Shown piece after piece: positions 28,835 through 34,221 of a DNA stretch of 34,342 nucleotides. How positions within the stretch are numbered: position 1 is the first letter of the stretch; each line of letters opens with the position of its first letter. Source of the stretch: Thiotrichaceae bacterium (GTDB lineage: Bacteria > Pseudomonadota > Gammaproteobacteria > Thiotrichales > Thiotrichaceae). The stretch is taken from contig JALXAX010000197.1 in the NCBI GenBank assembly GCA_026991755.1, forward strand, positions 1-34,342, written 5' to 3'. Made by a program: the position numbers and the translations under genes. A model generated the notes under the pieces. It was not told the DNA's origin. It worked only from the letters and a program-made list of their open reading frames with translations, and did no database searches.

Positions 28835-28871
28835 TCAAACAGATAGCTTCGTGCTATGGTTGGAGCAATAT

Positions 28872-29147
28872 ATGAAATATGAAATTGAAGTAGAAAATAT
28901 CCGCTGTGGCGGTTGTGCCAGTACCATTTCTAAAAAACTATTAGAAAACGAAGCGATTCAATCTGTTGATGTGCAAATTGAAGATCAAATCGTAGTAGTT
29001 GAGTCGGATGATGAGTCTGCAAAGCAATCTGCTGTTGATATCTTACTAAGTTTGGGTTACCCAGAAAAAGGCAGTGTCGAAGGTATCGCAGCGCTTAAGG
29101 GGAAGGCTAAATCAGTGGTAAGTTGTGCTGTTGGTAAGATGGGTTAG
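28872..29147 (+). CDS. Small heavy-metal-associated (HMA) domain protein
   Basis: A 91-residue single HMA domain of the ferredoxin-like fold with the metal-binding CGGC at residues 12-15, preceded by Ile-Arg rather than the common Met-x. Such proteins usually carry Cu(I) in the cytoplasm. The C-terminal extension (GKAKSVVSCAVGK) goes a little beyond the domain and includes another cysteine. ATG 28872 has TTGGAG seven bases before it, better than the in-frame GTG at 28851. No copper ATPase is adjacent, but a CuA protein is encoded about 4 kb downstream. Confidence 0.85.
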   Translation: MKYEIEVENIRCGGCASTISKKLLENEAIQSVDVQIEDQIVVVESDDESAKQSAVDILLSLGYPEKGSVEGIAALKGKAKSVVSCAVGKMG

Positions 29148-30008: not shown

Positions 30009-30174
30009 TAAGGGCATCTCTATTAATTCATGGTTCGTTTTACTGAGGCTAGAATTTGCTATATTTTCGCTATAAAAGTGACCAATAGCTGCGGCTATTG
30101 CTAACTTTTCTATCAAAAACCTAACAAATTCTATCTCACAGCAACTCCGACCAGAATTAATAGAGATGCCCTTA
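30009..30174. mobile_element. MITE-like element, copy B (166 bp)
   Basis: Perfect terminal inverted repeats of 21 bases (TAAGGGCATCTCTATTAATTC at its left, 30009-30029, and the complement at 30154-30174). The interior is close to the reverse complement of copy A, including TTCGCTATAAAAGTGACC and the core at 30080-30101, yet the arms differ. Its last bases provide the TAA stop codon of the anti-sigma gene (minus strand, 30174-30172). Confidence 0.82.
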
Positions 30175-30939
30175 GTTTGAAACTAAACCTTTAAGCTTCA
30201 CTAAATCTTGAGTCTTTAAGTCTGATATCAGGCTATAGCGCATGCCGTCGTTATTCCATTGCACAAGATTGTATCCTTTATAATGAGCAATTCGATCGCT
30301 TGCCGCTGTCTCTGGTTTAGGTGAAATATACAAATTAATCGTATGTTTGCGATGCCGATAGATCAGAGCCGCTACACTTTCCCCTGATAAATAATCTAAC
30401 CTTCCCCCCGCTAGTGGAAACCCTTGGCGCGTAAAATCACGAACTTTGGGTGAAAATCCTAAACGTCCATTAAACCATGGTTTAACATTGTGGCTATCAG
30501 AAGAAGCAATATCTAATAAATGCCCCGCTGTGAGTGATTGTACATGGGAGGCTACCAGCATTTCTTGCTCGCTCTCTTTGCCGTGAAAGATGGATGTACT
30601 TTGAGTAAAGGGCAGTGAAAATATCCCTAAAAATAAACCCACAAGCAGAGCAGGTACGCTGTATGCCAATGCAGATGATAGTGAGAACCATGAAGCTGTT
30701 TTTTCTTCATCGTGTAATGAATGGGCCAAACGTGCTTTTAAATGCTTAGGAGCTGTATGTTGGATCTGTTTTGATTGAAGTAGCTGGGAAGTTTCATGAA
30801 GACGTTGATATGCCTTTTGACAGCTCTCACAATTGTGTAAATGCTCTTCAATAGCGGCATGTCTGTCGTTATAGAGCGCCTTTTCTGTTTTGGAGTCTAG
30901 ATAGCTATCCAGATATTTTAGTGTGTCTTTACAGTTCAT
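30172..30939 (-). CDS. Zinc-binding anti-sigma factor
   Basis: Membrane anti-sigma factor partner of the sigma gene upstream; 255 residues. The N-terminal cytoplasmic zinc anti-sigma (ZAS) motif is H33-x3-C37-x2-C40, with another cysteine at 3. One membrane helix lies around residues 90-115 (AYSVPALLVGLFLGIFSLP). The periplasmic part, with RDFTRQGFPLAGGRLDYL and VAALIYRHRKHTINLYI, matches the kind of sensor domain found in other transmembrane anti-sigma proteins of this class. The start overlaps the sigma stop by four bases. The gene ends in the terminal repeat of a MITE, so the original C-terminus may have been changed. Confidence 0.88.
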   Translation of the reverse strand: MNCKDTLKYLDSYLDSKTEKALYNDRHAAIEEHLHNCESCQKAYQRLHETSQLLQSKQIQHTAPKHLKARLAHSLHDEEKTASWFSLSSALAYSVPALLVGLFLGIFSLPFTQSTSIFHGKESEQEMLVASHVQSLTAGHLLDIASSDSHNVKPWFNGRLGFSPKVRDFTRQGFPLAGGRLDYLSGESVAALIYRHRKHTINLYISPKPETAASDRIAHYKGYNLVQWNNDGMRYSLISDLKTQDLVKLKGLVSN

Positions 30940-31547
30940 AACTCTTCCCCTTTATGTCGTTCCCATTGCTTGGCTAACCTTGATCTGGCTCGTGCCAATC
31001 GAGACATCACCGTGCCTTGGGGAATACCAATCACTTTAGCTATTTCTTTATAAGATAGCCCCGACATTTCACGTAGAACAATGGTTTCTTTATATTCAAC
31101 GGGTAGCGCTTCGATTGCTTGGACCACTAAATGTTGTGAATACATTTTTTCAATTTCTTGTTCGGGTGAGAGAATATTTTGTAGTTCATCAAAGTATTCC
31201 TCTGTAAGGTTGTTAGTACTTTGCTCATCAAAAGAAATACTTTGGTATAAGCTTTGGCGGTGTTGTTGCATCCATGAATAGCAAGTGTTGCGTGTGATCG
31301 TTAAAACCCAGGAGCGTGCGTTGGTATCAATATAACTGTCAAAGGCACGGTAGGCTTTTAGATAAGCCTCTTGCACAATATCTTCAGCATCATTGTCGTT
31401 GCCTGATAAATAACGGGCAAGGTTGTAAGCCGCATCAAGGTGAGGTTGAAACAATCGCTCAAACTGTTTTCGTTTTTTATTTCCAAACAAGGTGCTCTCT
31501 CCATGTTCTGCCTTCTCGTACAGTTTCATACCAATGTACAGCTTCAT
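30936..31547 (-). CDS. ECF-type RNA polymerase sigma factor
   Basis: About 200 residues with sigma region 2 (GNDNDAEDIVQEAYLKAY, then WVLTITRN) and region 4 (LPVEYKETIVLREMSGLSYKEIA, then GTVMSRLARARSRL). It should direct transcription of a small regulon under control of the membrane anti-sigma factor. Two in-frame starts exist, ATG 31547 and ATG 31529, because an 18-base tandem repeat duplicates the start (MKLYIGMKLY). Neither has a strong ribosome site. If the GGGAATA box described for the intergenic region is the -35, the transcript would begin near 31552, which favours ATG 31529. Confidence 0.93.
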   Translation of the reverse strand: MKLYIGMKLYEKAEHGESTLFGNKKRKQFERLFQPHLDAAYNLARYLSGNDNDAEDIVQEAYLKAYRAFDSYIDTNARSWVLTITRNTCYSWMQQHRQSLYQSISFDEQSTNNLTEEYFDELQNILSPEQEIEKMYSQHLVVQAIEALPVEYKETIVLREMSGLSYKEIAKVIGIPQGTVMSRLARARSRLAKQWERHKGEEL

Positions 31548-31554
31548 ACCAATA
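31519..31554 (-). repeat. 18-base tandem duplication over the sigma start codon
   Basis: TACAGTTTCATACCAATG at 31519-31536 is repeated at 31537-31554 with differences at two positions (T to C inside, G to A at the last base). Each copy holds a start codon and the same bases before it, adding six residues in frame. Confidence 0.8.
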
Positions 31555-31581
31555 ACTAATAAACTGCTTTAAGCGTCTTTT

Positions 31582-31628
31582 TATTCCCGTTTATTGCGTA
31601 TCCATTAAAAAATATTTAAATGGGAATA
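31582..31628. promoter_or_regulatory. Mirrored ECF-type -35 boxes between sigma and metallophosphoesterase genes
   Basis: GGGAATA occurs on the plus strand at 31622-31628 and on the minus strand at 31588-31582, each pointing toward its gene. GGAA-starting -35 boxes are typical of ECF promoters, and ECF sigma genes usually control themselves. The -10 parts are not clear: plus-strand GTAGTC and minus-strand GACGCT are possible. Both boxes together suggest one regulon covering both directions. Confidence 0.4.
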
Positions 31629-31704
31629 TTTAAGTAGTCAGCTGAGTTATTAAGTTAATAGGGTTTTGTGAAGTAGCTCTGACTTATTAATAAGAGGATA
31701 TACC

Positions 31705-32607
31705 ATGAACATTAAAAGACGTGATTTTTTAAAAATAACTGCTTTTGGCGGTGCTGTTTTTTCGACAGGTTTATTTCAGCGAGCTGTATTTGCGGAATCA
31801 AAACAGGATGAATTTTATTTTGTACAGTTATCTGATACGCATTGGGGTTTTAACAATAAAAAGTTTAATGCTGATCCACAAGGTACATTACCCAAAGCCA
31901 TTGAGAGCATCAATGCGCTTGACCCACAGCCTGATTTTGTCGTATTTACGGGGGACTTAACCCATACAACAGATGATGATGAAGTACGCCGTAAACGGCT
32001 TGCTGAGTTTCAGGAAATTTCTAAACAACTAAAGGCAAAAACGATTCATTACATGCCAGGTGAACATGATGCATCAATAGATGGTGGTAAAGCCTACAAA
32101 GAGTTTTTTGGTGATTTGCACTATACCTTTGATCATAAGGGCATTCATTTTATCGCTTTGGATAACGTCAGTGATCCACGTGCAAGAATCGGTGAGGAGC
32201 AATTAAAGTGGCTTGAAGAAGACCTTAAACAACATGATAAAAATGCTCCCATAGTAGTGCTTACTCATCGTCCCTTATTTGATTTAGCTAAAGAATGGGG
32301 TTGGGCCACTACCGATGGAGATAAGGCCATGGAATTGTTAATGCCTTATAAAAACGTCACTGTTTTTTATGGTCATATTCATCAGGAACATCATCACACA
32401 ACAGCTCATATTCAACACCATTCTGCTAAGTCACTTATCTTTCCGTTACCTGCACCAAAGTCAGTTCCTAAAAAACACAAAATAGCTTGGGATACCGATC
32501 ATCCCTATCGTGGTTTAGGTGTTAGGAATATAGAAGTAGGAATGCCTTCTGCTAAATTTGATATTTACAATATAGATGTACTCAAATCAGCTAATACTAA
32601 GGTTTAG
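31705..32607 (+). CDS. Tat-exported metallophosphoesterase
   Basis: A 300-residue calcineurin-like phosphoesterase with a twin-arginine signal (KRRDFLKITAFGG, likely cleavage after VFA near residue 30), so it folds in the cytoplasm and is exported. Metal-site motifs: D44-T-H46, G83-D84-L-T-H87, G119-E120-H121-D122, T187-H188 and G223-H-I-H226. The third motif normally reads GNHD; here Glu replaces the metal-bridging Asn. Folding with metal before export fits the Tat route. The substrate is unknown. It is four bases ahead of the CuA gene and divergent from the sigma gene. An AAGAGG ribosome site is present. Confidence 0.88.
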   Translation: MNIKRRDFLKITAFGGAVFSTGLFQRAVFAESKQDEFYFVQLSDTHWGFNNKKFNADPQGTLPKAIESINALDPQPDFVVFTGDLTHTTDDDEVRRKRLAEFQEISKQLKAKTIHYMPGEHDASIDGGKAYKEFFGDLHYTFDHKGIHFIALDNVSDPRARIGEEQLKWLEEDLKQHDKNAPIVVLTHRPLFDLAKEWGWATTDGDKAMELLMPYKNVTVFYGHIHQEHHHTTAHIQHHSAKSLIFPLPAPKSVPKKHKIAWDTDHPYRGLGVRNIEVGMPSAKFDIYNIDVLKSANTKV

Positions 32608-32610
32608 TAT

Positions 32611-33024
32611 ATGAAGTTGTTAAAATTTCTATTAGTACTGGTATTCGCTATTTTGATCTTTAGCGGAGCATTGATGATACCTAGTCAGTATAACAACGGT
32701 GATGATAGAAAGGCTGGGAGTGCAATGGGAGCTGAGGTTGTAAACGATGAAAATATGGTAAAAATAACGGCAAGCATGTGGAAATACGACCCGCCTCACA
32801 TTGAGATTAAAAAAGGTAAACTCGTCATACTTGAGCTGACCTCACTTGATCGTTTGCATGGTTTTTATATTCCTGAATTTGATATTCGTGCGGATGTCAT
32901 GCCCAATAAAACCATAAGGGTTGAATTAATGCCTGAAAAGATAGGTAACTATCCCTTTCTTTGTGATATTTTTTGCGGTGATGGACATGGTGAAATGAAT
33001 GGTGTTATCCATGTGGTAGATTGA
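32611..33024 (+). CDS. Membrane-anchored CuA cupredoxin, COX2-like
   Basis: A 137-residue protein with one N-terminal hydrophobic anchor (about 3-24) and a cupredoxin domain facing the periplasm. The full binuclear CuA ligand set of cytochrome oxidase subunit II is present: H83 in RLHGFYIP, then C118-x3-C122-x3-H126-x2-M129. The strand FDIRADVMPNKT matches the COX2 pattern. It lacks the two-helix hairpin of true subunit II, and no oxidase genes are adjacent, so it is probably a stand-alone electron carrier, copper sensor or copper donor. It starts three bases after the metallophosphoesterase stop and is surely co-transcribed. Confidence 0.88.
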   Translation: MKLLKFLLVLVFAILIFSGALMIPSQYNNGDDRKAGSAMGAEVVNDENMVKITASMWKYDPPHIEIKKGKLVILELTSLDRLHGFYIPEFDIRADVMPNKTIRVELMPEKIGNYPFLCDIFCGDGHGEMNGVIHVVD

Positions 33025-33207: not shown

Positions 33208-34221
33208 TCATAGCGCTCCTTTGCAGCACATATGGAATTTATGACGATCAGTTACCTTCTTTTTTCGGGTAAAACTTCTACCCGATCGTACAGAACATAA
33301 ATCCTGTCCGATAGAGGATAACCACTCTCTAATTTCCTTACTACTTAGATTATTAAACAGCAGATGTATCAGTGTATTTTTCATAGCACTTAACGTAGAA
33401 ACAAAGTTGATTTTATAGCTTAATAAGCGTCCCTTAACCGTTTTCTCCTTATACTCCTGAGCGGCATAGGTCGTGATCGCAGCCAGTGTCTGGCAGAGAA
33501 CTCTTGCATGAAAATCTTGTTTAATGGCTAATACAGATCGCCCAGTAAAGTTCTCCATTTCAATCCCGTTTTTCTGCTTCTTATAACCTTCTTCAACTTG
33601 CCAACGTAGGTGGTATAAATCCTTAAAAGCTTTTAAAGGATAACGACGTTTATTCAATAGGTTAGTTATAAGAATGTATTCACCTTTAGTGGTTTTAATA
33701 CGCAATAAACGGACGGTAATGTCGGTGGTCGATACGCCTTTTTCTTTACAGGTTGCCTTCATTTGATCACTCGCACTTAGCATCACAATAGCCTGGTGTT
33801 TATTAGAACGAGCGAAAGCTTTAGTCTCTTTGTTAAAGTCCTTTCTCGCCCTCATACAAAAATGACTTCCCTTGTCTTGATGGGCTGCAAATAACCAGAA
33901 TGCAGGGTATCCACGATCATAAAGTGTCAGATCATCAGGGTGAGAATAAGCGAGATGTTGATAGGCTAAATCACGCTCACTATGTGTATAAGGTGCTAAA
34001 TCAGCATCTAAAATAAGCCCCTGAAAGACATCATAGAGGCATGATCCTAATGCCATAGGAATAGCCTTTTCATATTGATTGGTCATCCCTCCATAAGTGG
34101 CATAAGCACCCACCTCATCAGGAAGTAAATATTTGCTGCCATCAACCGCTAATACGCGAAGACCTAGCCATGACTGGAGTGAATTATCCTTGTAAAAGTG
34201 CTGAGTAAGACGGTGACCCCC
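33208..34221 (-). pseudogene. IS4-family transposase, N-terminus cut off by another IS
   Basis: DDE transposase of the IS4 family. From GTG 34113 it reads 301 residues, but the same frame continues upstream to about 34221 with clear transposase sequence, including LAVDGSK, which holds the first catalytic aspartate. The second is in LYDRGYPAFW, and the glutamate lies in the family signature YHLRWQVEEGYKKQ. About 90 or more N-terminal residues are missing at the junction with the IS3-type end. The C-terminus (HMCCKGAL) looks complete. A short minus-strand frame starting at 33210 (overlapping the stop) has no recognised product. The IS boundary on the left, between about 33070 and 33207, could not be placed. 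Confidence 0.85.

Follow-up and report, generated by a model that had tools for sequence, protein, structure and literature searches.

A candidate redox-coupled metallophosphoesterase with interchangeable electron carriers in an ECF sigma factor module of a Thiotrichaceae bacterium

The window analysed here, a stretch of 34,342 nucleotides from a Thiotrichaceae bacterium, holds a set of four genes in which those for an anti-sigma factor and an ECF sigma factor (reverse strand) diverge from those for a metallophosphoesterase (MPE) and a CuA-type cupredoxin (forward strand). We propose that they form an ECF-controlled envelope-response module whose MPE is redox-coupled with a dedicated electron carrier, and give this reading a probability of about 50%. 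The MPE itself is probably redox-coupled, because its pairing with a carrier is consistent across carrier types and persists where the regulator is missing, because carriers are absent beside ordinary MPEs, and because related loci show links to oxidases and peroxidases. The CuA protein looks like an interchangeable electron carrier, which is more likely than a role as copper sensor. More tentatively, we suggest that the GEHD subfamily, to which this MPE belongs, is redox-coupled as a whole and the first of its superfamily with an interchangeable one-electron carrier, many of the CuA-type carriers being a natural Met variant. We know of no oxidoreductase with the MPE fold, and a full-text search of a literature collection that covers a minority of subscription papers returned no published description of the MPE-carrier pair.

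Gene content and recurrence of the locus

The features of the locus, in order of position, are:

28872 or 28851 to 29147, forward strand: HMA protein, about 1 kb away on the 3' side of the anti-sigma gene
30009-30174: MITE-like element of 166 bp with perfect 21-bp terminal inverted repeats, TAAGGGCATCTCTATTAATTC
30172-30939, reverse strand: membrane anti-sigma factor, 255 aa
30936-31547, reverse strand: ECF sigma factor, regions 2 and 4 (Pfam)
31559-31588, reverse strand: predicted sigma promoter, -35 GGGAATA (31588-31582), 17 bp, -10 GTTTAT (31564-31559)
31622-31651, forward strand: predicted MPE-CuA promoter, -35 GGGAATA (31622-31628), 17 bp, -10 GTTATT (31646-31651)
31705-32607, forward strand: Tat metallophosphoesterase, GEHD subfamily, 300 aa
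32611-33024, forward strand: CuA-type cupredoxin with N-terminal anchor or signal, 137 aa
32857, 32962, 32974, 32986 and 32995, forward strand: predicted CuA ligands H83, C118, C122, H126 and M129
33208-34113, reverse strand: transposase with DDE_Tnp_1 domain (PF01609), directly past the CuA gene at the contig end

Sigma and anti-sigma genes overlap by 4 nt, and the gap from the MPE gene to the cupredoxin gene is 3 bases. The initial annotation had recognised the four genes correctly, although the interval it gave for them, 30936-33024, leaves out the anti-sigma gene. Its assignments of the individual products are borne out. The sigma factor scores above the Pfam cut-offs for Sigma70_r2 and Sigma70_r4, and the zinc-type motif HxxxCxxC can be read in the anti-sigma factor. 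The phosphoesterase carries a twin-arginine leader (KRRDFLK), as expected of a Tat-exported protein, and its match to PF00149 above cut-off places it, with a calcineurin-like fold, in the metallophosphoesterase superfamily. The cupredoxin passes both PF13473 and PF00116, and its five putative ligands stand at the canonical CuA spacing Hx34Cx3Cx3Hx2M, identical to that described for this site (PMC6189053), so that by its motif it is predicted to be a CuA domain. The genome's one other COX2-type match is on a different contig (C55); thus, as had been claimed, no oxidase subunit is encoded at the locus, and the cupredoxin is not encoded with subunits I and III in the manner of a cytochrome c oxidase subunit II.

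The single-domain HMA protein, which had been placed 2 kb upstream of the sigma operon, does exist, but lies past the 3' end of the anti-sigma gene. Since a similar protein is found close to just one of 113 related loci, we regard the HMA gene as a bystander and exclude it from the module. Clustering of the neighbours around the related loci yielded no fifth conserved gene. The transposase gene at the contig end would fit a region that has moved recently. The inner 121 bp of the MITE-like element occur in at least 42 copies in the genome, and the anti-sigma stop codon comes from the end of this element, so its insertion may have altered the last residues of the anti-sigma factor.

Within the class, 369 genomes were searched and two close relatives emerged: one (L043) with the identical four genes in identical arrangement, the other (L044) with sigma factor, anti-sigma factor and MPE, but with a dihaem cytochrome c in place of the CuA protein. 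An MPE-alignment scan of 84,980 species confirmed at least 577 relatives, the best 80 of which come from Betaproteobacteria, Gammaproteobacteria and Alphaproteobacteria as well as from assemblies labelled Acidobacteria, Nitrospirae, Melainabacteria and others. Among these, 61 loci have flanks of 2.2 kb or more to either side, and at 54 of the 61 genes for a sigma factor, an anti-sigma factor, an MPE and a CuA-type protein occur together. The four-gene set therefore recurs in many phyla, with matching promoters (see below), and the result that would have refuted the reading in the initial annotation, no co-occurrence of the gene pairs in other genomes, is not what is seen. In an even sample of phyla, 20 of 398 genomes (about 5%) encode a GEHD MPE. 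Among the other genomes of the window's own family that were searched, no full-length GEHD MPE was found; the exception is one genome of the same genus, in which a contig ends within a fragmentary MPE of the cytochrome-c type (L207). Some plasmid records were unannotated, and genes there were called from sequence. One Blastocatellia assembly (L071) holds two MPE modules from different clades, along with two sigma-like matches.

The GEHD active site and the adjoining carriers

The known structures nearest to the predicted model of the MPE (pLDDT 86) are those of GpdQ and Rv0805 (VIA Z 23-28; 2dxl, 3d03, 2hy1), with which the MPE shares all metal-ligand positions except one. Of the positions concerned (D44, H46, D84, E120, H188, H224 and H226), the six Asp and His residues are invariant in 87 aligned MPEs. 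Position 120, which aligns with Asn97 of Rv0805, is Glu in all 87 (window codon 32062-32064), giving GEHD instead of the canonical binuclear motif GNH(D/E) with its metal-ligand Asn. By comparison, 24 ordinary MPE relatives from 57 related genomes keep the Asn, as GNHD or GNHE. The catalytic His is kept in nearly all GEHD MPEs and is Asn in L044. The invariant change from Asn to Glu marks the GEHD site, as read from the alignment, as distinct. From general coordination chemistry, a carboxylate at the Asn position would be expected to stabilise the metal there in higher oxidation states. Predicted Tat export and the adjoining electron carrier further set the window MPE apart from GpdQ and Rv0805.

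With a wider MPE alignment and more genomes, the gene adjoining the GEHD MPE proved to vary between unrelated proteins that have one-electron transfer in common. Where both flanks extend for at least 2.2 kb, as they do at 85 GEHD loci, profiles assign 61 carriers to the CuA type, 16 to type-1 copper proteins and 4 to cytochromes c, which amounts to 81 of 85 loci, or 82 with the HiPIP of L075 and 82 of 86 once the carrier-less locus L047 is added. The types other than CuA are distributed as follows:

Type-1 copper carrier: L045, L131, L145-L159
Monohaem cytochrome c, SoxA/TsdA type: L048, L129, L138, L160, L161, L164
Dihaem cytochrome c: L044
HiPIP: L075

Besides L047, three of the 85 tallied loci have no carrier; a YceI-like protein (L123) and a TPR protein (L162) in the carrier position were not counted as such. 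In the even phylum sample a carrier is present at 18 of 19 GEHD loci, and the pairing is kept at 9 of the 11 loci without sigma and anti-sigma genes. No carrier gene was detected beside the 24 ordinary GNH(D/E) relatives in the 57 related genomes, within flanks of about 1.5 kb. The contrast of 82/85 with 0/24 corresponds to a Fisher p of about 4e-21, a value that ignores both the kinship of the loci and the shorter flanks of the controls; given that kinship, the sampled loci do not count as independent observations. On the MPE tree the carrier types mostly track clades, the dihaem cytochrome and the HiPIP being nested inside the CuA clade. The labels used give five carrier changes. Since L071 was mislabelled on account of its two modules, one of the five is spurious, which leaves approximately four independent swaps.

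Variation extends to the CuA-type carriers themselves. In 77 such proteins both Cys and the second His never vary, and all but one (76) retain the Met; the first ligand position, however, is divided between His (38 proteins) and Met (39), and its state changes seven times on the MPE tree. This natural exchange offers a comparison for ligand tuning of the CuA centre. While the window cupredoxin resembles the CuA domain of oxidase subunit II (Thermus ba3, 2cua) in its Hx34Cx3Cx3Hx2M motif and, by sequence, its cupredoxin fold, it differs from that domain in standing alone and in belonging to a family in which half the members have Met in place of the first His. PmoD is likewise a small periplasmic cupredoxin with a CuA-type site outside an oxidase or N2O reductase, but its site is formed by Cx7MxHxnC at a homodimer interface, a motif that is absent from the canonical window protein (PMC6189053).

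Two further gene arrangements connect GEHD MPEs to redox enzymes. At two rhizobial loci (L160:4295-9182 and L164:4887-9707, the latter on a Rhizobium plasmid), MPE and cytochrome c genes are followed by COX1 and FixO-like genes for cbb3-type oxidase subunits in one apparent operon. This order suggests that electrons can reach a dedicated cbb3-type oxidase. A second recurrent cluster, without ECF genes, comprises a MauG-type dihaem peroxidase, a GEHD MPE and a SoxA/TsdA-type cytochrome c (L040, L041, L048, L138, L161). The contig-end fragment from the window's genus (L207) belongs to this peroxidase type.

Sigma factor, anti-sigma factor and promoters

The sigma factor consists of regions 2 and 4 only. 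Its first ATG (31547) would leave a mere 12 nt or so to the predicted -10 hexamer, which makes 31529, the second ATG, the likelier start. The anti-sigma factor combines a cytoplasmic HxxxCxxC domain (H33, C37, C40; read directly, the zf-HC2 score being under the Pfam cut-off) with one predicted membrane helix and a periplasmic domain that contains the conserved stretch SSDxHTVKPWFNGKLDFSPPV...GGRLDYL and, in an AlphaFold model, gives a weak Foldseek match to RseB/MucB. By these features the two proteins are classed as an ECF sigma factor with a class I (zinc-type) anti-sigma factor, with autoregulation predicted from the promoter motif.

Counting the window, GGAATA is found towards the MPE gene in 58 and towards the sigma gene in 64 of 67 divergent intergenic regions, compared with about 3 per strand expected from shuffled sequence, and a GGT(A/T/C)-like element follows downstream at a near-fixed distance. 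Because matching promoters face both divergent operons, the sigma factor very probably drives its own operon and the MPE-CuA operon. The strict sigma-side pattern has two matches in the whole genome, one of them at this locus; the other, at G000:C60:2250-2277, is a possible further target of the sigma factor.

The -35 element matches the GGGAATA type of ECF26, which makes the sigma factor a possible member of that group. A model of the anti-sigma factor, however, gave no match in the Sinorhizobium meliloti rpoE6 region, so that EcfR6, an ECF26 anti-sigma factor, is not detectably related to the window protein, and homology to EcfR6 lends the assignment no support. The ECF26 sigma factors RpoE1 and RpoE4 of S. 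meliloti respond to sulfite-generating compounds, and RpoE4, with a -35 of GGGAATT/GGAATAA, drives the sulfite dehydrogenase SorT together with genes for a cytochrome c and a pseudoazurin (PMC3511301, PMC6180224). The RpoE4-EcfR4/sorT-sorU-azu2 system thus resembles the window module in its GGGAAT-type -35, its ECF sigma factor with membrane anti-sigma factor and its periplasmic metalloenzyme with carriers, but has a molybdenum sulfite dehydrogenase as its enzyme, where the window encodes a protein of the MPE fold.

Alternative explanations and proposed function

If the MPE were an ordinary exported phosphoesterase that cleaves a nucleotide, phospholipid or phosphodiester, the carrier would simply belong to the same envelope-stress regulon, chemically unconnected with the MPE. 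The fold and ligands in common with GpdQ and Rv0805 and the retention of most catalytic residues speak for this explanation, and ECF regulons often group unrelated stress genes. It is nevertheless unlikely in our view, since the carrier stays with the MPE even at loci without ECF genes, whether as a CuA protein, a blue copper protein, a cytochrome c or a HiPIP, since it is missing beside the ordinary GNH(D/E) relatives, and since the invariant Glu points to a distinct site. The initial annotation had suggested the stand-alone CuA protein as a copper or redox sensor feeding the sigma/anti-sigma pair. Its complete set of CuA ligands and the very probable control of the operon by the sigma factor would agree with such a role. 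Related MPE loci, however, swap CuA for type-1 copper proteins, cytochrome c, dihaem cytochrome c or HiPIP, and several keep a like sigma/anti-sigma pair when they do so, including those with the non-copper HiPIP (L075) and the cytochrome c of L044, which argues for electron carriage. Moreover, the first His is absent from half of the CuA-type proteins, and the HMA gene is not conserved. We thus find a sensor role improbable; of the envelope response put forward with it, a redox link in the general sense is likely, and copper sensing by CuA is not supported.

A third explanation has the MPE act as a hydrolase in the way of SoxB, itself a protein of the MPE fold, while the carrier takes the electrons of a linked oxidation and sulfite or thiosulfate serves as inducer. 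In line with it, the carriers in the cytochrome-c clade are members of SoxA-TsdA_cyt-c, an MPE-cytochrome pair on an S. meliloti plasmid adjoins genes for SoxY, SoxZ, a cytochrome c and an FAD oxidoreductase, and the best studied sigma factors with a GGGAAT-type -35 respond to sulfite-generating compounds (PMC3511301). The window, on the other hand, contains no sox gene, no sulfur gene recurred among the clustered neighbours of the CuA-type loci, and EcfR6 is no detectable relative of the anti-sigma factor. A sulfur-specific function is accordingly quite unlikely.

In the redox-coupled module that we favour, the membrane anti-sigma factor would hold the sigma factor until a periplasmic signal releases it, and the freed sigma factor would switch on both its own operon and the MPE-CuA operon that diverges from it. 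The presumed products are a Tat-exported protein of the calcineurin/GpdQ fold, loaded with a binuclear metal site, and a dedicated periplasmic one-electron carrier. The Glu-modified metal site could itself oxidise a substrate, or hydrolyse one to a product that is oxidised afterwards; alternatively, the oxidation state of the MPE metals might have to be set by electron transfer. Electrons would pass via CuA or its stand-ins (blue copper protein, cytochrome c or HiPIP) to the respiratory chain. The gene set and its recurrence, the promoter common to both operons, the ligand residues, the exchange of carriers and the replacement of Asn by Glu are read from the sequences themselves, whereas sigma control, export, metal loading and the direction of electron flow are inferred from them. 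Caution is called for here, as the MPE keeps the remaining ligands of a hydrolase and gene neighbourhood is no proof of direct electron transfer.

Genes of the GEHD type, where annotated, are named just "metallophosphoesterase". Being compact, with a readable promoter and two candidate metal centres, the module could be probed for function, inducer and metal chemistry in culturable hosts such as Cupriavidus, Herbaspirillum or Massilia. If the coupling holds, a very large superfamily of hydrolases would have a branch in electron transfer.
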